NCBI GenBank assembly: GCA_027858735.1
Contig: JAQICC010000137.1
Location: 1-42,164, forward strand
Reading direction: 5' to 3'
Length of the DNA stretch: 42,164 nucleotides
Source of the DNA: Salinivirgaceae bacterium
GTDB lineage: Bacteria; Bacteroidota; Bacteroidia; Bacteroidales; SZUA-534
Both the position numbers and the translations under genes were made by a program. The notes under the pieces were generated by a model. That model had not been told where the DNA came from and ran no database searches. It was given only the letters and a program-made list of their open reading frames with translations. Numbering within the stretch: the first letter of the stretch is position 1; the number at the start of each line of letters is the position of its first letter. Below, piece by piece: positions 7,886 to 39,643 of the stretch.

Positions 7886-7912
7886 GTTATTATTTTCTTA
7901 ATTTTTGATCGG

Positions 7913-28957: not shown

Positions 28958-29398
28958 TTAATTTACGTTGTTTACGGTTAAATCTTTAAACGCTTTGCCC
29001 ATCTCATCCAAATCATGATTGAATTCACTTCTAAATGCAGTCCATTTTTCCTGGCCTTCATCTTTTAAATTATTTAGTGACTCTTTCATTTCATTATTTT
29101 TAGTCTCTAACGCATTCAATTTCTTTTGGTAGATGGCCTTATCTTCCCTTTTTTCAGTGGCTATCTTTGCTTTTAACTCAGCAATGCTTTTTTTGAAATT
29201 GTTAACTTTTACTTGCGCTTCCTTCTTGTATTGTTCAATGGAATCGTTTCGTTCCTGATTAAACTCTACCGCTTTATCCATGGTAGTTTCTACTTTTTCT
29301 TGAGCATTCTCAGCTTTTTTATTTGATAAACTACAACTGGTTATAAATGCTCCTGATACGATTAATGCCAGGATAATAATTGTTATTGAATTTTTCAT
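28958..29398 (-). CDS. Coiled-coil lipoprotein
   Basis: A 146-aa lipoprotein. It has a signal peptide with lipobox SGAFITSC (Cys at about residue 22), then an almost entirely alpha-helical, Lys/Glu-rich region (about 30-125) with heptad spacing that predicts a coiled coil, and a conserved-looking tail, QEKWTAFRSEFNHDLDEMGKAFKDL. It resembles small stress-related coiled-coil proteins of Bacteroidota, but I cannot name a family with confidence. It is preceded by a 39-bp regulatory box (29461-29499) and -7 element (29436-29443), so it belongs to the regulon described in the findings. Confidence 0.82.
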   Translation of the reverse strand: MKNSITIIILALIVSGAFITSCSLSNKKAENAQEKVETTMDKAVEFNQERNDSIEQYKKEAQVKVNNFKKSIAELKAKIATEKREDKAIYQKKLNALETKNNEMKESLNNLKDEGQEKWTAFRSEFNHDLDEMGKAFKDLTVNNVN

Positions 29399-29435: not shown

Positions 29436-29443
29436 TAAAGGTA
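29436..29443 (-). promoter_or_regulatory. -7 element of the lipoprotein promoter
   Basis: On the minus strand TACCTTTA lies exactly 17 nt downstream of the 39-bp box, the same spacing as in the three other copies. Transcription should start near 29429, giving a leader of about 30 nt. Confidence 0.65.
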
Positions 29444-29460
29444 AATATCTATGAAGGGTA

Positions 29461-29499
29461 AAGTGTTATACAACTTTTGCAATAAGTTGTATTATTCAC
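29461..29499 (-). promoter_or_regulatory. 39-bp activator-type box, copy 1
   Basis: Read toward the lipoprotein gene, it begins GTGAATAATACAACTT and ends AAGTTGTATAACACTT. It holds a perfect inverted repeat (ATACAACTT and AAGTTGTAT, 7 nt apart) and imperfect direct repeats (ATACAACTT and ATAACACTT, 23 bp apart). The proximal end is 62 bp from the start codon. Confidence 0.75.
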
Positions 29500-29700
29500 A
29501 GTTTAACCCGCATTATGCAATAGCATAATTCGACTAAGAGCAACTAACTGATTTAATGAATAATAAAAAAACTAAGATTATACCGATGTGGTTAAATCAC
29601 CAATTTGCTCTAAGTCGGGACAGGCTCGGAGCTTGCCATTAGTTTATTTCATTCCTAATGACTAATCGCGGTTTAAACTGCAAATCACTACCCTAAAAAC
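29500..29700. other. Gap between box 1 and the DUF3494 terminator
   Basis: No ORF. Small hairpins are seen (ATTATGC/GCATAAT at 29512-29529, and AGAGCAA with TTGCTCT, about 29536 and 29603). No function can be assigned. Confidence 0.3.
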
Positions 29701-29740
29701 AAAAAAACCACCGCCGATTACTCGGAACGGTGGCCTTTTT
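29701..29740 (-). terminator. Terminator of the first DUF3494 gene
   Basis: CCACCG/CGGTGG with an inner CCGA/TCGG stem and TTAC loop, followed on the minus strand by a T-run. The core is identical to the terminator of the second DUF3494 gene (34332-34367), supporting duplication of gene plus terminator. Confidence 0.9.
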
Positions 29741-29754
29741 ATCTGAATTTATCA

Positions 29755-32700
29755 CTAATTCGATATCAGTTTGCCTGATTGAATCGTAATTTCATTATCA
29801 ATCACTTTGTAGAAATAAACACCTTTAGGAAGATTATTCGTTTCATAGACAGTTGATTGTTTTGTTATGACTGTATGCATTATTTCTACTCCCACAACAT
29901 TGTATAATTTCAATTCGCAATTATTTATTAGCGAAATATCATTTATCTTGAAAACTATTGAAGTAGTGAATGGATTTGGATAAACACTAAATGCTTTATT
30001 ATCAGCATTAAATATTACAATACCCGTTGCATTAGCTTCCAAAGAAACATTTACTGAAGTAGCAATTGGTTCACATGTTCCGGAAACAACCACATTATAA
30101 TCGGATGCTGCATCAGTTAAAGCTACAGGATTAATAGTAAGGGTAGCTGTTGTCGCGCCACTTATATTTCCTGTATTGCTTAAGTCAACAGTTCCTTTTC
30201 TCCATTGGTAAACCAAACCGATACCGGTTGCAGTTGTAGAAAAACTAACTGACTCACCAACGGTTGCAATTTTATCGCTTGGTTCAGTAGTAATTACAGG
30301 AGCCGAATTCATTGCTAAAGAAGCATCGTTTGATACAACTATAGGTGCACAAGTACCTGATACCTGAACGCTATAGCTTGATGAAACATCGATGAAACTT
30401 GTCTGAAGTATTGATAGATTAGCGGTAGTTGCACCTGAAATAGTTGCACCATCCATTAAATCAACCTCTTCTTTTCTCCATTGGTAAGTAAGATTCGTTC
30501 CTGTTGCTGTCACTGAAAAATCAGCCTGATTGCCTTCACAAACGGTTTGATCCATTGGTTCAAGGCTTATAATCGTAGCCGTATTTACCGTTAAGGATGC
30601 ATTCGCAGAAGTTACATCAGCGGCACACATGTTTGAGACAAGAACGTTATAATCAGAACTTGCATCAGACACTAAAACAGTATCAATACTAAGCGAATTG
30701 GTGCTTACTCCTGAAATGTTAGCTCCATTGCTTAGGTTAACCAATCCTTTTCTCCATTGATATACAGGTTCATTACCTGATACTAATACTGAAAAACTAA
30801 TTGGGCTGCCTTCACACACGGTTTTATCCATTGGTTGATTCGTAATGCTTACTGGCTGATTTACAGTTAATGCAACATTCATTGAAGTATCATTTAAAGC
30901 GCACGTGCCAGAAACAATAACATTATAATCTGATGCAGCATTAACCATAGCCACTGGATCAATTGTCAGCGTGGCTGATGTTGCACCTGAAATATTTCCG
31001 GTGTTGCTTAAGTTTACAACTCCCTTTCTCCACTGATAAGTTAAACCTGCGCCTGTTGCATCAATTGAAAAACTTACCGGACTTCCTTCACATACTGTTT
31101 GATTAGTAGGTTCAGCATTAATGGTTAGATCACTGCTTATAGTTAAAGAAGCATTTGCCGAAGTTACTTCCATCCCACAAATATCTGAGATAATAACATT
31201 ATAGTTTGATACCGTATCAACATTAGCTACAGGATTAACGGTAAGGGTTGCGGATGTTGCGCCTGAAATATTACCCGTATTTGTCAAGTTCACCGTTCCT
31301 TTTCTCCACTGATAAGTTAGACCTGCACCCATTGCACTTACTGAAAAACTTGCTGAATTTCCAACAGTACAAACAGCTTGATTAGCTGGTCCAGTTGTAA
31401 TGCTAAGAACAGGATTAAAAGATAATGAAACATTACCCGAAGTATCTGAAGGTTCAAGCGAATCAAATACAATAACATTATAGTTTGAACTTGTATCAGA
31501 AGCGCTTACAGGGTTAATTATCAAGGTATCGTTAGTTACTCCCGATATGTTGCCCCCGTTGCTTAAGTTTACAGTTCCTTTTCTCCATTGGTAGGTATAA
31601 GAACCCATACCCATTGCGCTTACAACAAAACCTGCAGAATCACCATCACAAACAGCTTGCTCTTCAGGATTGATTGAAACCATAGGTATTGGTAAAACCG
31701 TGGTCATTCCTGTGGTTGAAATGGAACCATTTGTTGTAAGGGCTCTACCATCAAGGCTTGCACCTTTAAGAAGGTCGATTGCCCCATTGTTGGCAACAAT
31801 AGTTCCATTAAAAACTGAACTGTCACCAATGCTTACAGCACCATTAACCATCCAAAATACATTTTTTGCTTGTGTTCCGTTCTTCAATATAACGTTTGAA
31901 TGTACACCTGATGCAAAGGCACCATAAGTTTTAATAACAAAAACAGCATCGGCATTTCCTGTGGCATCCAAAATTAAGGTGTCCGTAAATGTAACCGCCG
32001 TATTCATAACATAAGAATTTGGAGTAAGCACCAAATTGTGCCCGAATTGAGCAGGAGCCAACAATTCAATATCTGCCGTAAGTGTACTCATGGAATTATA
32101 AACCAACAATAAATCGGCAGCAGCACCTGCTGTAGAAGGATTCATACCTTCAATTTTGCCCGATACAAATAAAGGGTTAAAGCCTGTAGGTAATGCAGTA
32201 TTGCTACCCACGCTACCTGTAACATGCGATGTACCATCATCGGAAACATCCCCTATGGTGGAAAATACAGCATATTGTTTTGATTCAACAAATACAGGGG
32301 CTGCTGGTCCTGTAGGCAGTGAAGCTGCTATATCAACAGGTAAATATGCCGATAATCCTATATCTCCGTTGTTAATGGTAACTGAACCATTAATGGTAAG
32401 TGCTCTACCTTCAAGTGTATTACCAGCTGCCATTGAAATTGATCCACCGGCAATAATAGTACCTTTCATTGAAGTTTCGGTGCCCATACTTACTGCACCA
32501 GTTACAAACCAAAACACATTGCATGCTTGTGCACCGTTTATTAATTTAACCTGTGCATTTACACTGGTGCTAAAAGCATATACAGGGGGTCCTGCAGGCA
32601 TTTTAAAAATAAATACTGCATTCGCATCGCCCTGCGCATCTAAGGTAATACTTTTGTCGAGCGAAGTTGCGCCAGGCAATAGGTAAGTACCCGCCTTAAA

Positions 32701-33048
32701 AGTAGAATCGTTTCCCAACACAGGATTCACAATTGTTGAATCGGGAATAGCTGCCTCAAGAAAGTTATAAGCAGCCAGTACATCAGTAGCGCATTGGCCG
32801 CTTTCTCCGTTACCTGCGTGCATACTACCATTCACATTACCAAAATTGGTATTTGAACCACTATTTGTACCTACATCACCTGTCAGTAATGTCAAATACT
32901 GGTATGTTCCTACATTTTGCATTGCCCCAACCGAAGTAAACAGAACAAAATCGGCAGCAGTACCCATTGGGGGCGCCTGTGCAATACTCAAAGTTGTTAT
33001 TAGCATCAGAATAACTGCTGCTAAAACATTACGTAATTTTTTTTTCAT
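29755..33048 (-). CDS. Tandem DUF3494 (ice-binding-like) protein with six Ig-like domains and T9SS sorting domain
   Basis: A 1097-aa secreted protein. After a signal peptide (1-24) come two DUF3494 domains (about 28-240 and 255-450), recognised by [32 protein letters not shown] and GRALTTNGS-type turns. This is the right-handed beta-solenoid fold of bacterial ice-binding proteins. Six Ig-like domains follow (about 455-1005), each with YQWRK and a C-terminal SDYNV strand, then a T9SS sorting domain (VYPNPFTTSIVFKIND, GVYFYKV, GKLISN). DUF3494 domains are known from ice-binding and ice-adhesion proteins, but activity cannot be read here. It lies 165 bp downstream of the DUF4382 gene and may share its promoter. 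Its first 450 residues are nearly the same as in the 1520-aa paralogue. Confidence 0.9.
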   Translation of the reverse strand: MKKKLRNVLAAVILMLITTLSIAQAPPMGTAADFVLFTSVGAMQNVGTYQYLTLLTGDVGTNSGSNTNFGNVNGSMHAGNGESGQCATDVLAAYNFLEAAIPDSTIVNPVLGNDSTFKAGTYLLPGATSLDKSITLDAQGDANAVFIFKMPAGPPVYAFSTSVNAQVKLINGAQACNVFWFVTGAVSMGTETSMKGTIIAGGSISMAAGNTLEGRALTINGSVTINNGDIGLSAYLPVDIAASLPTGPAAPVFVESKQYAVFSTIGDVSDDGTSHVTGSVGSNTALPTGFNPLFVSGKIEGMNPSTAGAAADLLLVYNSMSTLTADIELLAPAQFGHNLVLTPNSYVMNTAVTFTDTLILDATGNADAVFVIKTYGAFASGVHSNVILKNGTQAKNVFWMVNGAVSIGDSSVFNGTIVANNGAIDLLKGASLDGRALTTNGSISTTGMTTVLPIPMVSINPEEQAVCDGDSAGFVVSAMGMGSYTYQWRKGTVNLSNGGNISGVTNDTLIINPVSASDTSSNYNVIVFDSLEPSDTSGNVSLSFNPVLSITTGPANQAVCTVGNSASFSVSAMGAGLTYQWRKGTVNLTNTGNISGATSATLTVNPVANVDTVSNYNVIISDICGMEVTSANASLTISSDLTINAEPTNQTVCEGSPVSFSIDATGAGLTYQWRKGVVNLSNTGNISGATSATLTIDPVAMVNAASDYNVIVSGTCALNDTSMNVALTVNQPVSITNQPMDKTVCEGSPISFSVLVSGNEPVYQWRKGLVNLSNGANISGVSTNSLSIDTVLVSDASSDYNVLVSNMCAADVTSANASLTVNTATIISLEPMDQTVCEGNQADFSVTATGTNLTYQWRKEEVDLMDGATISGATTANLSILQTSFIDVSSSYSVQVSGTCAPIVVSNDASLAMNSAPVITTEPSDKIATVGESVSFSTTATGIGLVYQWRKGTVDLSNTGNISGATTATLTINPVALTDAASDYNVVVSGTCEPIATSVNVSLEANATGIVIFNADNKAFSVYPNPFTTSIVFKINDISLINNCELKLYNVVGVEIMHTVITKQSTVYETNNLPKGVYFYKVIDNEITIQSGKLISN

Positions 33049-33213
33049 TTATTTATGTTTTTAATTAGTAAAAAAAATATTTAAACAGTTAAACTCACCT
33101 GCAAAATATAATTGCCAGGCTTAAGCACTGTTTCTGGATATTATGGCTACCGTCAAGCCTCTTATTATCTAGCTGAATTTCCTGCCCTTTGGCAGACACT
33201 AAATAATTAGTAA

Positions 33214-33984
33214 TTAATTTATTTTAACCGTATCTAAATCAGTTATCTGTCCTAACAATACTTCAACATTGGTTATTGTTTTTTCAGAGATAAGAGTATC
33301 TCTAGGTTGAATAATAACTTCATAGAAACCTTCTGGTATCCCTTTTAATAAAAAATAACCATTTATATCTGAAATAGTACCAATTGTATCATTTGAATTC
33401 AAAGCTTGAACATAGTATGAAATTGAGCCAGGTTCAATTATTCCTTTTATAGAACCACTTGTGGCTTCTGTAAAAGTGCGGATAACCGGTTTCAAATTAT
33501 ATTTTCCTGAGCCCGTTTCAACTATTGATCTGGAAGCATCAAAATCAAGCCACATGGAATAAGTAATTCCTTCTTCCAGTTGTTGATGAATTTGCAATTT
33601 TAATCCTGACTGTATACCTGATGTAGTAAACAAATCATGAGTTTGTCCATCTTTTACTAGTGTATTATTCTCTCCAAGGTAAAGTCTTATTTGCGAAGCA
33701 TTTCCTGTCGGAAGATATGAGGATGCTAATAATGTGTCCAAGCCATTATTAAAATCTAACAAGTTATAAATTCCTTTATTCATGATTTCGACATCATGCC
33801 ATCCTTCTTCATTTTCGTTATCACCAATATGAATTTGAACATTTTCGATTTCAACGTTCACTGCTTCATAATTTGCAGGAGCATCAGTAAGCCTGATATT
33901 CAATACAGCTTCTTTAGTGTTTTCATCTTTGCCGCATGAAACTATAAAAAACACCCCCAATAAAATAATCGTTAATTTTTTCAT
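33214..33984 (-). CDS. DUF4382 lipoprotein
   Basis: A 256-aa lipoprotein with signal peptide and lipobox FFIVSC (Cys17). The central part (about 25-165) matches DUF4382: LNIRLTDAPANYEAVNVEIENVQIH, a D/N-rich strand, LPTGNASQIRLYL and SMWLDFDASRSIV. The last 80 residues (from about 170, GSIKGIIEPGS and NGYFLLKGIPEGFYEVII) form a carboxypeptidase-regulatory-like beta-sandwich. DUF4382 proteins are surface or envelope lipoproteins of unknown function in Bacteroidota and other bacteria. The promoter is the box-2 promoter at 34236-34299. A 160-bp palindromic element lies in the leader. The DUF3494 gene follows on the same strand. Confidence 0.88.
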   Translation of the reverse strand: MKKLTIILLGVFFIVSCGKDENTKEAVLNIRLTDAPANYEAVNVEIENVQIHIGDNENEEGWHDVEIMNKGIYNLLDFNNGLDTLLASSYLPTGNASQIRLYLGENNTLVKDGQTHDLFTTSGIQSGLKLQIHQQLEEGITYSMWLDFDASRSIVETGSGKYNLKPVIRTFTEATSGSIKGIIEPGSISYYVQALNSNDTIGTISDINGYFLLKGIPEGFYEVIIQPRDTLISEKTITNVEVLLGQITDLDTVKIN

Positions 33985-34015
33985 AATTTATAAGTTTTAA
34001 TTATTTCTATATATA
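33985..34015 (-). other. Leader segment between the palindromic element and the DUF4382 start
   Basis: AT-rich DNA with no promoter consensus. It shows only the end of the leader that would be made from the box-2 promoter. Confidence 0.3.
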
Positions 34016-34181
34016 TTAGAAGCTGTTTAAGTTTTATCCTTCAGTTTTATTATGTGCCTTTTTTACCATATTATTGTTATTTTTTCTACACGTAACTATG
34101 GCTATGTGTCTCAAAAATGCCTCAATATGGCAAAAAACTCTTCATAATAAATTCTAAAAACAAAATTTAAACAGCTTCTTA
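34016..34181. mobile_element. MITE-like palindromic insertion in the DUF4382 leader
   Basis: The 160-bp element (34019-34178) has terminal inverted repeats GAAGCTGTTTAA (16 of the first 17 bases match when the next five are included). It is flanked on both sides by TTA, a candidate 3-bp target duplication (34016-34018 and 34179-34181). The inverted similarity continues inward, through TTTATTATG and TTTTTTrCCATAT, to a centre near 34095-34100, so the whole element can fold back on itself. It has no ORF of more than a few codons. A 3-bp TNA-type duplication suggests mobilisation by an IS5-group transposase. Confidence 0.7.
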
Positions 34182-34235
34182 GAAGTTCTTAATCCAATTT
34201 TCATTTCACTTTCATTAAGTTAAATAATTGAACAA

Positions 34236-34243
34236 CAAAGTTG
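34236..34243 (-). promoter_or_regulatory. -7 element of the DUF4382 promoter
   Basis: On the minus strand CAACTTTG lies 17 nt downstream of box copy 2, as at the other three sites. The leader to the DUF4382 ATG would be about 245 nt, most of it the palindromic element. Confidence 0.6.
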
Positions 34244-34260
34244 GCTACCATTTAAATAAT

Positions 34261-34299
34261 AAGTGTTACATAACTTAAGTAATAACTTACATTATTCAC
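34261..34299 (-). promoter_or_regulatory. 39-bp activator-type box, copy 2
   Basis: Toward the gene it begins GTGAATAATGTAAGTTATTA and ends AAGTTATGTAACACTT. It matches copy 1 at the ends and centre, and also beyond the distal end (both continue into a GGTTAA/GGTTAAAC-type sequence). It lies between the terminator of the second DUF3494 gene and the DUF4382 gene. Confidence 0.75.
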
Positions 34300-34331
34300 A
34301 GGTTAACCAATGAAACACAACTAAAAACAAA

Positions 34332-34367
34332 AAAGGCCACCGCCGATTACTCGGAACGGTGGCCTTT
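34332..34367 (-). terminator. Terminator of the second DUF3494 gene
   Basis: AAAGGCCACCG/CGGTGGCCTTT with the same inner CCGA/TCGG stem and TTAC loop as the terminator at 29701-29740. A T-rich stretch follows on the minus strand. Confidence 0.9.
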
Positions 34368-34382
34368 AACTATCTTAGTTTA

Positions 34383-37300
34383 TTACTGATTTGAAATCAG
34401 TTTACCTGATTGAATGGTTTTTCCATTCGCTATCACTTTGTATAAATATATACCTGAATGAAACTTACTCGTTTTAAAAGTTGTTTTTTGTTCAGTAATT
34501 TTTGCAATTATCTTCTCTTCTCCTAAAATATTATAAATCCTCAATTCGCAATTATTTATTAGCGAAACATCATTTAACTCGATGGCTATTGAGTTTGTAA
34601 AAGGATTAGGATAAAAGCCAACTGATTTAGTATCATCTTCGTTATTAATAATACCCGTTGTGCATTCAACAAGCGTTGCGGTTGTTCCTGTTGAAACACA
34701 TCCATCAATATTCTGCACCGTTACTTCATATACGCCTGGATCAACTGATGTAAATATCCCTGAAGTATTGGTATAGGTTTCCCCATCAATACTAAAAGAA
34801 AGATCAGTTAAAATTGAGCTTACAGTAATTGTACCCGTTAGTACGGTACATGTTGGCTGAATCAAAGTAACAGTTGGTGCTTCCGGAGTTGCCGGTTGAG
34901 CATTGATTGTAACGCTTGTCGCTAGTGAAACACATCCGTCAGCATTCTGCGCAGTAACTTCGTATGTGCCTGCTGCAACTGATGTAAATTCCCCTGAAGT
35001 ATTGGTATAGGTTTCCCCATTAATACTAAAAGAAAGATCAGTTAAAATTGAGCTTACGGTGATTGTACCGGTTGCTACATCACAAGTTGGTTGTAAGGTT
35101 GCACTGGCAGTTGGTGCTACCGGAGTTGCCGGTTGAGCATTGATTGTAACGCTTGTTGCTAGTGAAACACATCCGTCAGCATTCTGGGCTGTTACTTCGT
35201 ATGTTCCTGCTACAACTGATGTAAATATCCCTGTAGTATCGGTATAGGTTGTATCATCAATACTAAAGAAAAGGTCAATTGTACTTGAGCTTACAGTAAT
35301 TGTACCAGTTGCTACTGAACAGTTTGGCTGGATCAAAGTAACAGTTGGTGCTACCGGAGTTGCCGGTTGAGCATTGATTGTAACGCTTGTCGCTAGTGAA
35401 ATACATCCGTCAGCATTCTGGGCTGTTACTTCGTATGTTCCTGCTACAACTGATGTAAATATCCCTGTAGTATTGGTATAAGTTGTATCATCAATACTAA
35501 AGAAAAGATCAGTTAAAATTGAGCCTACGGTTATTGTACCAGTTGCTAATGAACAGCTTGGCTGGATCAAAGTAACAGTTGGTGCTACCGGAGTTGCCGG
35601 TTGCGCATTGATTGTAACGCTTGTTCCAAGTGAAACACATCCGTCAGCATTCTGTGCAGTAACTTCGTATGTTCCTGCTGCAACTGATGCAAATATCCCT
35701 GTAGTATTGGTATAAGTTAAACCATCAATACTAAAAGAAAGATCAGTTAAAATTGAGCTTACGGTTATTGTACCAGTTGCTAATGAACAGCTTGGCTGCA
35801 AGGTTGCACTGGCAGTTGGTGCTGCCGGAGTTGCCGGTTGCGCATTGATTGTAACGCTTGTCCCTAGTGAAATACATCCATCAGCATTCTGCGCTGTTAA
35901 TTCGTATGTGCCTGCTGCAACTGATGTAAATATCCCTGTAGTATTGGTATAGGTTGCCCCATCAATACTAAAAGAAAGTCCAGTTGTACTTGAGCTTACG
36001 GTAATTGTACCGGTTGCTACTGAACAGCTTGGTTGTAAAGTTGCGCTTGCGGTTGGTGCTGCCGGAGTTGCCGGCTGAGCATTTATTATAGCGCTTGTTC
36101 CTAGTGAAACACAGCCGTCAGCATTCTGTGCAGTAACTTCGTATGTGCCTGCTGCAACTGCTGCAAATATCCCTGTAGTATTGGTATAAGTTGAACCATC
36201 AATACTAAAAGAAAGATCAGTTGTACTTGAGCTTACGGTAATTGTACCGGTTGCTACTGAACAGCTTGGTTGGGTCAAATTGACAGTCGGTGCTGTGATT
36301 GACGGCTGGGCATTGATTGTTGCACTTGTTCCAGTTGAAATACATCCGCCTGAATTTTTGGCTGTTACTTCGTAATTATCTGGATCAACAGATGTAAATA
36401 TACCTGTAGTATTGGTATAGGTTGTACCATCAATACTGAAAGATAAACCTGTTGTACTTGAATTTACAGTAATTGTGCCGGTTGCTACTGAACAACTTGG
36501 TTGGGTCAAAGCGACAGTTGGTGCTGGGGTTGCCACTTGGGCAATGATTGATACACTTGTACCTGTTGAAACACATCCGCTAGCATTCTTCGCAGTTACT
36601 TCATACACGCCTGCTGCAACTGATGTAAATTCCCCGGTAGTATTGGTATAGGTTGAACCATCAATACTAAAAGAAAGGCCAGCTGTACTTGAGCTTACGG
36701 TAATTGTGCCAGTTGCTACTGAACAGCTTGGTTGCAAGGTTGCACCAGCGGTTGGAGCAGTTGGTGTTGGGTTAACAACTAAAGAAGCATTTATTGAAGT
36801 ACCATTTGGAGCACATTCTCCAGCGATAACAACATTATAGTCGCTAGCTGCATCGGCAATAATCACAGGATCAATTGTAAGCATAGCAGAAGTTGCTCCG
36901 GCTATATTAACTGTTCCTTTTCTCCATTGGTAAGTAAGGCCTGCACCAATTGCAGATACTGAAAAACTTACCGAACTTCCTTCACAAACTGTTTGATTAG
37001 TAGGTTCAGAATCAATGATTAGGTCACTACTAATTCTTAAAGAATCATTTGCTGAAGTTACATTTCGTCCACAAATATTTGAGACAACAACATTATAGTT
37101 TGATACCGTATCGACAAAAGCCATAGGGTTAATGGTAAGGGTTTCAGATGTTGCGCCTGAAACATTACCTGTGTTTGTCAAGTTATCATTTCCTTTTCTC
37201 CATTGGTAAGTAAGACCTACGCCCGTTGCACTTACTGAAAAACCTGCTGAATCTCCAACAGTACAAACTGCTTGGCTGCTAGGTTCTTTTGTAATGCTTG

Positions 37301-38945
37301 GGAGCGGATTGAAAAATAATGAAGCATTTGCTGTAGTATCCGAAGGTTCAAGAGAATCAAATACGATAACATTATAGGTTGAACTAGTATCAGAATCGCT
37401 TACAGAGTCAATTATCAGGGTATCGTTAGTTACTCCCGATATGTTGTCTCCGTTGCTTAAATTTTCTGCACCTTTTCTCCATTGGTAGGTATAAGAACCC
37501 ATACCTATTGCGCTTACTACAAAACCTGCAGAATCACCATCACAAACATATTGATTGCTGGGATTGATTGAAACCAGAGGTATTGGTAAAACTGTTGTCA
37601 TTCCTGTGGTTGAAATGGAACCATTTGTTGTAAGAGCTCTACCATCAAGGCTTGCACCTTTAAGAAGGTCGATTGCACCATTGTTGGCAACAATAGTTCC
37701 ATTAAAAACTGAACTATCACCAATGCTTACAGCACCATTAACCATCCAAAATACATTTTTAGCTTGTGTTCCGTTCTTCAATATAACGTTTGAATGTACA
37801 CCTGATGCAAAGGCACCATAAGTTTTAATAATAAAAACAGCATCGGCATTTCCTGTGGCATCCAAAATTAATGTATCGGTAAATGTAACCGCCGAATTCA
37901 TAACATAAGCATTGGGAGTAAGAACCAAATTGTGTCCAAATTGAGCAGGAGCCAACAATTCAATATTCGCAGTAGTCGTACTCATGGAATTATAAACAAG
38001 CAATAAATCGGCAGCAGCACCTGCGGTAGCAGGATTCATGCCTTCAATATTACCCGATACAAATAAAGGATCAAAACCTGTAGGTAATGCACTATTGCTA
38101 CCCACGCTACCTGTTACATGCGATGTACCATCATCGGAAACATCGCCTATGGTAGAAAATACGGCATATTGTTTTGATTCAACAAATACAGGAGCCGCTG
38201 GTCCTGTAGGTAATGAAGCTGCTATATCGACAGGTAAATAACCCAAAAATCCTAAGTCACCATTATCAACTGTAACCTGACCGTTAATGGTAAGGGCTCT
38301 TCCTTCAAGGGTATCATTTGCACCCATGGCAAATGCCCCGCCGGCAATAATGCTACCTTTCATTGAAGTTCCGGCAGCCATACTAACAGCACCACTAATA
38401 TACCAATATACATTACAAGCCTGAGCACCATTTATTAACTTTACTTTTGCATTCACACTGGTACTAAAGGCATAAACAGGGGATACTGCAGCCATTTTAA
38501 AAATAAATACCGCATCAGGATCTCCCTGTGCATCTAATGTCAGACTCTTGTCGAGCGACACTGCTGAGGCTGGAAATAAGTATGTACCCGCCTTAAAAGT
38601 TGAGTCGTTCCCTATAACAGGATTAACTATTGCTGAATCATGAAGAGCTGCAACAAGGAAGTCGCGAGCAATTAATAAATCGGCATTACATTCCGCAGTT
38701 ACTCCGTTGCCTTCATGCATAACGCCATTCACATTACCAAAATTGGTATTTGAGCCACTGTTTGTGCCCACATTACCCGTTAACAAAGTTAAATACTGGT
38801 AGGTTCCTACATTTTGCATTGCCCCAACCGAAGTAAACAGGACAAAATCTGCAGCAGTACCCATTGGGGGTGCCTGTGCAAAACTAAAAGTTGTTATTAG
38901 CAACAGAAATACTGCTGCAAATACATTCCGTAATTGTGTTTTCAT
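34383..38945 (-). CDS. Tandem DUF3494 protein with Ig-like domains, nine SprB-like repeats and T9SS sorting domain
   Basis: A 1520-aa secreted protein, the largest in the window. It has a signal peptide (1-24), two DUF3494 domains (about 28-450, with [16 protein letters not shown] and [12 protein letters not shown]), three Ig-like domains with YQWRKG (about 455-722), nine tandem repeats of about 78 aa (about 724-1426), and a T9SS sorting domain ([29 protein letters not shown]). The repeats follow the SprB-repeat pattern: [36 protein letters not shown] long ice-binding-like head on an extended stalk suggests an adhesin or ice/surface attachment protein. This is an inference. Its promoter is box copy 3 (39012-39052), 67 bp upstream. 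Confidence 0.9.
34668..36776 (-). repeat. Nine tandem ~235-bp coding repeats (SprB-like)
   Basis: Nine units of about 78 codons in the second DUF3494 gene. Each has two Cys, one in QPSC or a variant (QPNC, QPTC) and one in DGC or a close variant, likely forming a disulfide. Units near the C-terminal side are very alike ([17 protein letters not shown]), indicating recent expansion. Boundaries are approximate. Confidence 0.85.
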
Positions 38946-38986
38946 TTGAATTTATATTCGTTAAAAATTTATTTTTAATGAAGTGA

Positions 38987-38994
38987 TAAAGGTA
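38987..38994 (-). promoter_or_regulatory. -7 element of the second DUF3494 promoter
   Basis: On the minus strand TACCTTTA, 17 nt downstream of box copy 3, is the same sequence as at copy 1. The leader would be about 35-40 nt. Confidence 0.65.
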
Positions 38995-39011
38995 AGCTCG
39001 TTGCAATCCGG

Positions 39012-39052
39012 AAGTGTTATACAACTTTAGATATTACTTGCGTAATTACCAC
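39012..39052 (-). promoter_or_regulatory. 39-bp activator-type box, copy 3 (41-bp variant)
   Basis: The proximal half (AAAGTTGTATAACACTT toward the gene) is the same as copy 1. The distal half diverges (GTGGTAATTACGCAAGTAAT) and is two bases longer. The -7 element at 38987-38994 keeps the 17-nt spacing. Confidence 0.7.
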
Positions 39053-39312
39053 ATTATTAAACAAAAAGAGGTTTTACTGTGCGGAAATTTATATCAGTAT
39101 TAAATGTCAATGCACACTTGAAATGACCTTTGTATTCTAAGATTTCAAATCTGCCTACATGCGTGGTTTCGTGTCATGTGGAAAGTTAAAAGTATTCGTA
39201 TCGGTTTTTATCTTGATAAAGTTAGCAGTGCCCTTGAAATTAGAGTTAAAACTGTTACTATATAAATCCAAACGGCGATCACAAGCTAAATGTGCTATTA
39301 AAAAATATATGT
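39053..39312. other. Intergenic DNA between divergent boxes 3 and 4
   Basis: No credible gene. A minus-strand ORF at 39155-39349 runs into box 4 and shows no family resemblance. This 260-bp stretch separates two divergent promoters of the same regulon. Confidence 0.35.
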
Positions 39313-39351
39313 GTGAATGATGTAACTTATTACCAGAATTAAGTAACACTT
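39313..39351 (+). promoter_or_regulatory. 39-bp activator-type box, copy 4
   Basis: On the plus strand it begins GTGAATGATGTAACTTATTA and ends AGTAACACTT. It is closest to copy 2. The proximal end is 64 bp from the SHOCT gene ATG. The -7 element follows after 17 nt. Confidence 0.75.
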
Positions 39352-39368
39352 TTCGATATCAAAACAAT

Positions 39369-39376
39369 CAATTTTG
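39369..39376 (+). promoter_or_regulatory. -7 element of the SHOCT/PRC-barrel promoter
   Basis: CAATTTTG, 17 nt after box copy 4. It fits YAnnTTTR as at the other sites. The leader would be about 33-35 nt. Confidence 0.6.
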
Positions 39377-39415: not shown

Positions 39416-39643
39416 ATGATGTACGATGGTTATCAATTTTGGGGGATGCACTTTGTATGGTGGATTATTTGGTTTGGATTTATACTTTGGATTTTCGCTT
39501 TACCCTATCGAATTCCAGGTCAGCGACATAAGCAAGATTCTCCTCTTGACATACTACAGAAACGCTTTGCTTCTGGGTTAATATCAAAAGAAGAGTATGA
39601 AGAGGCAAAAGCAATTCTTGAAAAAGATAGGATTACAAGTTAA
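39416..39643 (+). CDS. SHOCT-domain small membrane protein
   Basis: A 75-aa protein with one N-terminal membrane helix (about 10-30, HFVWWIIWFGFILWIF) and a C-terminal SHOCT motif (about 42-70, PLDILQKRFASGLISKEEYEEAKAIL). SHOCT domains are short helical oligomerisation modules. The protein is complete. A second Met follows directly, so the start may be one codon later. Its promoter has box copy 4, and the PRC-barrel gene follows after 83 bp, which contains a small GAGCGA/TCGCTC hairpin (39691-39705). A role in envelope stress is inferred from context only. Confidence 0.85.
   Translation: MMYDGYQFWGMHFVWWIIWFGFILWIFALPYRIPGQRHKQDSPLDILQKRFASGLISKEEYEEAKAILEKDRITS

Follow-up and report, generated by a model that had tools for sequence, protein, structure and literature searches.

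AraC/XylS class II activators, such as AraC at araI1-I2, SoxS, and MarA, carry a C-terminal AraC domain of about 100 residues with two helix-turn-helix (HTH) modules and act from direct-repeat sites that end at the -33/-35 region. The hybrid two-component systems of Bacteroides combine an AraC output, a histidine kinase, and a receiver in one protein. The general stress regulons of sigma-B, sigma-S, and EcfG include genes for CsbD, Usp, Dps-like, BON, and small membrane proteins. The Bacteroidota are not known to carry the familiar general stress sigma factors, and little of their stress regulation has been mapped. Here we describe a repeated DNA box in a 42,164-nucleotide stretch of a Salinivirgaceae bacterium (Bacteroidota, Bacteroidales; assembly GCA_027858735.1, contig JAQICC010000137.1, positions 1 to 42,164), referred to below as the window. 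An initial inspection of these letters (the original prediction) had proposed that four copies of the box define an envelope regulon. The sites of the box, their position and conservation, the gene families behind them, the autoregulatory position, and the co-occurrence with a clade of AraC genes were all obtained by computation. The box is real and conserved in Bacteroidota as a putative switch site, and it is probably the operator of an AraC-family activator, designated AraC-SxRC, that would drive a stress and envelope regulon.

AraC-SxRC and its putative operator have the two-HTH domain and the direct-repeat site of the class II activators, but the N-terminal domain is similar to a heavy-metal-associated (HMA) domain rather than a sugar-binding domain, the promoters have a Bacteroidota -7 element, and the putative targets form a dispersed stress regulon, not one operon. 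In the genome of the window (G000) and in one relative (G002), the putative regulator joins AraC, kinase, and receiver domains in one protein like the hybrid systems do, but its AraC domain is N-terminal and its input domain is PAS, and in most of the other relatives listed the open frame is about 190 to 230 amino acids (aa) long. The genes downstream of the boxes are of the kinds found in the general stress regulons, but they are preceded by an activator-like box at -7/YAnnTTTG promoters and not by an alternative sigma promoter. The same two domains make up the HMA-AraC paralogues of Bacteroidota, and in G048 and G043 weak boxes lie beside more distant AraC genes, but these paralogues keep the first metal cysteine (14 of 16 in the tree keep both), unlike the SxRC clade. 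None of the open-licence papers listed by literature searches (in one case 20 of 654 matches) describes, in its title or the opening of its abstract, the box, the HMA-AraC family, or a Bacteroidota stress regulon governed by it. As far as checked, the AraC-type activation mechanism is of a known kind, and the regulon and the make-up of the regulator are new. The box, its likely regulator, and the list of downstream genes can be read in many genomes, including those of culturable Flavobacterium species, and the regulation of ice-binding-like (DUF3494), CsbD, sll1863, Usp, and Dps-like genes in Bacteroidota becomes directly testable.

Four boxes in the window

All four boxes and their octamers are present where the original prediction had placed them. 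Each has the form GTG...TAACACTT, followed after exactly 17 nt by a YAnnTTTR octamer (4/4), which reads, for boxes 1 to 4, TACCTTTA, CAACTTTG, TACCTTTA, and CAATTTTG. Every box is co-oriented with the genes downstream of it. All four were found both as pattern and as model matches.

29461 to 29499, minus strand: box 1, 39 bp, GTGAATAATACAACTTATTGCAAAAGTTGTATAACACTT
29436 to 29443, minus strand: -7 element TACCTTTA, 17 nt past box 1
28958 to 29398, minus strand: box 1 target, 146-aa coiled-coil lipoprotein
34261 to 34299, minus strand: box 2, 39 bp, GTGAATAATGTAAGTTATTACTTAAGTTATGTAACACTT
34236 to 34243, minus strand: -7 element CAACTTTG, 17 nt past box 2
33214 to 33984, minus strand: box 2 target, DUF4382 lipoprotein
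29755 to 33048, minus strand: Ice_binding (DUF3494) protein with Ig-like repeats and a type IX secretion system (T9SS) sorting tail
39012 to 39052, minus strand: box 3, 41 bp
38987 to 38994, minus strand: -7 element TACCTTTA, 17 nt past box 3
34383 to 38945, minus strand: box 3 target, second Ice_binding (DUF3494) protein, 1,520 aa, T9SS tail
39313 to 39351, plus strand: box 4, 39 bp, GTGAATGATGTAACTTATTACCAGAATTAAGTAACACTT
39369 to 39376, plus strand: -7 element CAATTTTG, 17 nt past box 4
39416 to 39643, plus strand: box 4 target, SHOCT-domain small membrane protein, 75 aa
39727 to 40497, plus strand: PRC-barrel protein

The predicted box length of 39 bp holds for boxes 1, 2, and 4, but the outer left part of box 3 is 2 bp longer, with the core repeat staying in register. 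The predicted distance of 62 to 67 bp between box and start codon at three sites is found for boxes 1, 3, and 4 (62, 66, and 64 nt to the ATG), and box 2 ends 276 nt from its ATG. The box 1 lipoprotein matches the NCBIfam sll1863 family stress response protein (50.8 bits; cutoff, 35). The Ice_binding gene at 29755 to 33048, 165 nt downstream of the DUF4382 gene, is presumed to be the second gene of the DUF4382 transcript, as the PRC-barrel gene is presumed to be of the SHOCT transcript. Identical 26-bp terminator-like hairpins follow both Ice_binding paralogues (window positions 29708 and 34337), which suggests a tandem duplication of these genes, terminator included.

Further boxes in the genome

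The 6.0-Mb genome contains seven exact matches to the 33-nt pattern TAACACTT-N17-YAnnTTTR, compared with one match to a backwards control pattern. The seven matches are the four window boxes, a fifth full box on contig C400, and two intragenic matches, on C50 and C388, that were rejected as boxes because they lie inside genes and have no left half-site. Within the window, the short pattern with two mismatches was not significant by itself (5 found versus 4.66 expected); the significance of the box comes from a longer, 65-nt model and from the relatives. Model R1, a sequence-only model built from the four window boxes and the C400 box, yielded four further genome sites with expectation values (E) from 8e-9 to 1.2e-3, followed by a gap to E 0.06. 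With the 65-nt model the nine own-genome boxes score E 0.0012 to 5e-14, five of the nine having trained that model, and every one of them precedes an open reading frame (ORF). The scan of the genome and its relatives that the original prediction had proposed thus gave nine own-genome boxes and many in relatives. The four sites added by the model are as follows.

Contig C395: box before a Big_5/Ice_binding lipoprotein
Contig C103: box before a 60-aa ORF, CsbD-like by eye, with no Pfam or NCBIfam match
Contig C207: box before an AI-2E-type transporter
Contig C400 region: box before an ORF of 127 aa transcribed divergently from the regulator gene

Own-genome matches weaker than E 0.05 were not counted; five of these were inspected, with ORFs mapped for two. 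One weak match, on C262, was discounted as intragenic. Another, on C179 (L019, 1501 to 1545), has the right half only (E 0.07), is intergenic, and lies directly before an ORF; it is a possible weak half-site or tenth site.

Box architecture and promoter geometry

The consensus of the nine own boxes is TGTGAATnATGTAACTTATTnCnAAAGTTATGTAACACTT-N17-TACCTTTG. In their alignment the repeat copies stay 21 bp apart, with mismatches, and the spacer is 1 nt shorter in one box. Same-strand identity peaks at a 21-bp shift (0.49). The 23-bp direct repeat of the original prediction was rejected, as identity at that shift is only background (0.33). The dyad halves that had also been proposed fared better: there is some dyad symmetry (best identity, 0.47 over 14 pairs), but in an information-weighted self-comparison of a logo of 44 AraC promoters, described below, the 21-bp direct repeat scores 8.16 versus 6.44 for the best inverted pairing. 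From these comparisons the box is best described as a 21-bp direct repeat with the unit A[AG]TTATGTAAC in two copies, with the weaker dyad symmetry ranked second.

In Flavobacterium psychrophilum (PMC9723704), the TAnnTTTG element spans -12 to -5, which would place the right half-site at about -37 to -30 and extend the box to about -69. The box overlaps the -33/-35 region at a fixed distance from the -7 element, as class II sites do. In relatives, 30 of 40 boxes have the -7 element at offset 57 when the -7 pattern is loosened. The fixed 17-nt spacing and the position of the box are thus consistent with the proposal of an activator-type site adjoining the -33 region.

A candidate regulator with the box in its own promoter

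The regulator was predicted to be encoded outside the window, and the best candidate does lie elsewhere in the same genome. The fifth exact box, on C400, is in the promoter of an AraC-type gene, and its -7 element stops 25 nt before the TTG start codon of this AraC-kinase gene. The 1,092-aa protein comprises an AraC-type HTH domain (Pfam HTH_18, 8.8e-16), which is N-terminal to the kinase, followed by two PAS domains, HisKA, HATPase, and a receiver; a gene for a 145-aa receiver follows. The AraC orthologue of G002 is likewise fused to PAS, kinase, and receiver domains, and the AraC open frame of G162 is of like length (1,088 aa; length only). Two AraC proteins that were tried matched no NCBIfam model at the cutoff (for one of them, among the best 25 of 29 matches).

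The autoregulatory position was evaluated in 80 named Bacteroidota loci that hold the AraC gene, the best 80 kept, which are the closest relatives of an SxRC query. Model R2, trained on the nine own boxes only, has a match (E ≤ 0.5) starting 83 to 115 nt before the AraC start in 50 of the 80 loci, these matches having been picked by eye and then checked. In locus L196, from the culturable environmental strain Flavobacterium fluvii DSM 19978, the araC promoter and a neighboring gene both have the box (boxes at 7910 and 12470). Model-free counts agree. The commonest 7-mer in the 200-nt AraC upstream regions is TGTGAAT, found in 48/80 loci; across 50 shuffled sets no 7-mer exceeded 25. The shorter TGTGAA stands at -75 to -135 in 44/80 regions, and the logo anchored on it is AATGTGTGAATTATGTAACTTATTnnnAAAGTTATGTAACACTT. 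Among these 44 promoters, YAnnTTTG is at offset 57 in 21 and at offset 56 in 7, and the conserved positions fall mainly in the box and the -7 element. These results suggest that the box is most likely bound by an AraC-type regulator that also controls its own gene.

The codon aligned with the C400 start is TTG in 64/80 loci, and the retained TTG start perhaps limits synthesis of the regulator. In one metagenome-assembled genome the AraC frame (L184, 8004 to 8564) has one stop codon, either a pseudogene or an error.

Genes downstream of the boxes

A set of 120 further boxes was chosen from 208 model-match rows in the named loci, leaving out aligned AraC-promoter rows, rows scoring worse than about E 0.0011, and a small number of further rows (such as L164 7819, L168 3638, and L176 7533). 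The named loci are AraC neighborhoods and so show the clustered part of the regulon. The boxes are not randomly placed relative to genes: 118 of the 120 lie outside ORFs of at least 120 aa, and 82% of random positions fall inside such an ORF. The next start codon lies a median of 38 nt beyond the model's end, which is at the -7 element; for 9 of the 120 boxes there is no ORF within 300 nt.

Of 111 downstream proteins, 88 were scanned, with AraC copies, near-repeats, and some others left out. They include 23 Ice_binding proteins, 6 CsbD proteins, 6 response regulators, 5 OmpA proteins, and 3 cupins, with single cases of Usp, BON, a Dps-like ferritin, DUF4382, and MlaE. The box-preceded receiver proteins recognized by eye are short (137 to 164 aa), and the part of the family list that was displayed (25 of 50 matched families) includes no DNA-binding family, AraC having been excluded beforehand. 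Starting from the genes rather than the boxes, nine of the 60 relatives hold 18 Ice_binding genes in total (a pair of matches at G021:C13, of which one has an internal stop, counts as a single gene), and 15 of the 18 have a box, 14 at their own promoter and the gene at 29755 to 33048 through its presumed operon. The three unboxed genes are in G005, which has a CIRC-type AraC; in G050, which has a distant AraC (E 7e-55); and in G045, which has none at 1e-20.

As the original prediction had it, these genes would form a regulon, with boxes before genes of many families in the genome of the window and in its relatives. Envelope genes are among the putative members, but the label of an envelope regulon is too narrow, as genes for CsbD, a universal stress protein, a Dps-like ferritin, BON, and response regulators are preceded by the box too; the downstream set reads as one of stress and envelope genes. 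Some of the box-preceded genes lie in islands, in G002:C140 (L113), G044:C256 (L116), and G021:C3 at 434 to 465 kb (L118 and L119), each of which has six boxes at E ≤ 0.01.

Co-occurrence of the box with a clade of AraC genes

Model R2 was applied to 295 genomes belonging to the order, in which a close AraC clade was defined as an AraC-domain profile match at E ≤ 1e-74. Box matches at E ≤ 1e-3 are present in 69 of the 295 genomes, namely, in 50 of 56 with a close AraC versus 19 of 239 without one (Fisher test, 7e-34). In a phylum-wide sample of 395 genomes, the box is in 18/36 close-AraC genomes versus 14/359 others (4e-13).

Several observations count against AraC-SxRC as the reader of the box and against the regulon assigned to it. 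The genomes are related, so the Fisher values just given overstate independence. Six of the 56 close-AraC genomes have no box, and the 19 boxed genomes at E ≤ 1e-3 have no close AraC. Thirteen order genomes have a box even at E ≤ 1e-5 and no close AraC; 6 of these have some AraC of the family at E 1e-12, and 7 have no AraC match even at that threshold. Three AraC-less box-bearing genomes (G023, G040, and G257) are at least 98% complete. Box-preceded Ice_binding genes are found with no AraC match at 1e-20 in G023 and in G011 (65% complete), and only 3 of the 6 CsbD genes above the family cutoff have a box. At phylum scale half of the close-AraC genomes (18/36) are without the box, as are, to the eye, nine AraC upstream regions of family f142, which are of the SLRC kind with an ATG start. 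Among the 80 loci, 30 AraC promoters have no model match at the fixed place. The geometry is also less decisive than it may seem: the nine own boxes barely separate direct repeat (0.49) from dyad (0.47), and the spacing among R2 matches is partly selected because R2 covers the -7 columns, the TGTGAA-anchored set being fairer. A 21-bp period would suit LytTR proteins too, and geometry alone does not name the family.

One of the 13 box-bearing genomes, G125, has on contig C193 a 65-residue AraC fragment beginning 25 nt past a box; we read it as an AraC gene cut by the contig end, and it is the only one of the 13 with an obvious excuse. Fifteen AraC upstream regions of the phylum sample were inspected by eye: 13 belong to genes of the SLRC/SIRC kind that start with ATG, and no clear box is visible in them; a box-like stretch precedes one STSC gene, whose start is TTG; and the one region of the CIRC kind has none. 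The box therefore seems to accompany a sub-branch of the AraC clade. In the strongest boxes of G040 and G023 (L125 and L132), the -7 element reads TTAG, not TTTG.

Alternative explanations

The box might instead be bound by a different regulator, for example a response regulator of the LytTR or NarL type, with the AraC gene merely one of its targets. The AraC genes are preceded by the box as any target would be, response regulator genes are box preceded too (6/88), and the seven box-bearing genomes without a family AraC among the 13 checked would be accounted for. We nevertheless consider this unlikely. The association of box and AraC clade across the order and the fixed position of the box in 50 of the 80 AraC promoters both argue for the AraC protein, and the receivers behind boxes are short, with no DNA-binding family in the part of the family list described above. 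The LytTR- or NarL-like regulator of the original prediction thus found no support; nothing that was seen points there, although no search was aimed at either.

It is still less probable that the box is the operator of a repressor, with the AraC protein or another factor covering the -33 region and blocking the promoter. The site does overlap the -33 region, as many operators do, but the fixed 17-nt spacing together with a 21-bp direct repeat is the usual geometry of AraC-type class II activation, whereas repressor sites tolerate varied positions. That the repeats were left behind by a mobile element, or by a gene duplication that carried the promoter by chance, as the paralogous window Ice_binding genes with their identical hairpins might suggest, is scarcely credible, being already contradicted by boxes that stand before unrelated families in many genomes, almost always outside ORFs, and by conservation that in the AraC promoters is concentrated in the box and -7 element.

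Proposed mechanism

We infer binding, activation, the signal, and the general-stress nature of the response from the patterns described above. In activation by AraC-SxRC, two HTH modules or two monomers would contact the two A[AG]TTATGTAAC copies, and the 21-bp distance, two helical turns, would put both copies on the same face of the DNA. With the promoter-proximal copy ending at about -37 to -30, AraC-SxRC could touch sigma-A RNA polymerase at the -7 element YAnnTTTG and recruit it, which would be class II activation. Binding to the box in its own promoter would create a positive feedback loop. AraC-SxRC would then turn on dispersed, partly clustered envelope and stress genes. In the window these putative targets would be the sll1863-like lipoprotein, the DUF4382/Ice_binding transcript, the second Ice_binding gene, and the SHOCT/PRC pair. 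The putative targets outside the window would be the C395 Ice_binding lipoprotein, the AI-2E-type transporter, the CsbD-like 60-aa ORF, and the gene divergent from the regulator. Input to AraC-SxRC is probably via a phosphorelay, because AraC is fused to PAS, histidine kinase, and receiver domains in this genome and in G002 and because box-preceded kinases and short receivers are found elsewhere.

A broader and more tentative interpretation, which we hold at somewhat less than even chances, is that many free-living Bacteroidota mount their general stress response in this way, through an AraC activator instead of an alternative sigma factor. Its sensor would be an HMA domain minus the metal site, rewired to PAS/kinase phosphorelays, and its signature output would be ice-binding-like surface proteins.

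N-terminal domain of the regulator and its paralogues

An AlphaFold model of the regulator, made with an alignment of 36 sequences (36 of the 80 loci; mean pLDDT, 85; pTM, 0.72), has a beta-alpha-beta-beta-alpha-beta domain, a linker helix, and an AraC domain. In Foldseek comparisons, the HTH part matches AraC-family structures (AraC domains of the PDB), and the N-terminal part matches the HMA domains of GolB, Atx1, and NmerA weakly (target TM, 0.64 to 0.70; E values, 0.16 to 0.6). The Pfam HMA match to the regulator, at 0.28, is below the cutoff. The N-terminal domain is predicted to have the HMA fold. In place of the MxCxxC metal site, the regulators have MVSxRC in 80/80 loci, a sample biased toward the closest relatives of the SxRC query; a serine replaces the first metal cysteine. 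The 16 paralogues that keep this cysteine, 14 of them CxxC, are on the opposite side of a 100/95 branch from SxRC, with the bootstrap not settled, in a tree of the relatives whose AraC was caught by a text pattern (21 of 30 loci tried). The SxRC side also holds L099, a long and unusual sequence.

The fold, the MVSxRC motif, the paralogues that keep cysteines, and the boxes beside metal genes together make the SxRC clade look like a metal-sensor architecture whose metal site has been lost, and they suggest a route by which such an architecture may have turned to another signal. The genome of the window has an AraC paralogue of the CNRC type on C344, beside a permease that looks ArsP-like. No model match was found upstream of this gene or between it and the permease; the two weak matches in this stretch (13.1 and 7.1 bits) lie elsewhere. 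In G048 a weak box separates a more distant AraC paralogue from a copper-ATPase-like gene (L129), and in G043 one stands between such a paralogue and an ArsP-like permease gene (L131), both genes being named by eye. These two boxes hint that the wider HMA-AraC family may read related DNA sites and may have begun with metal resistance.

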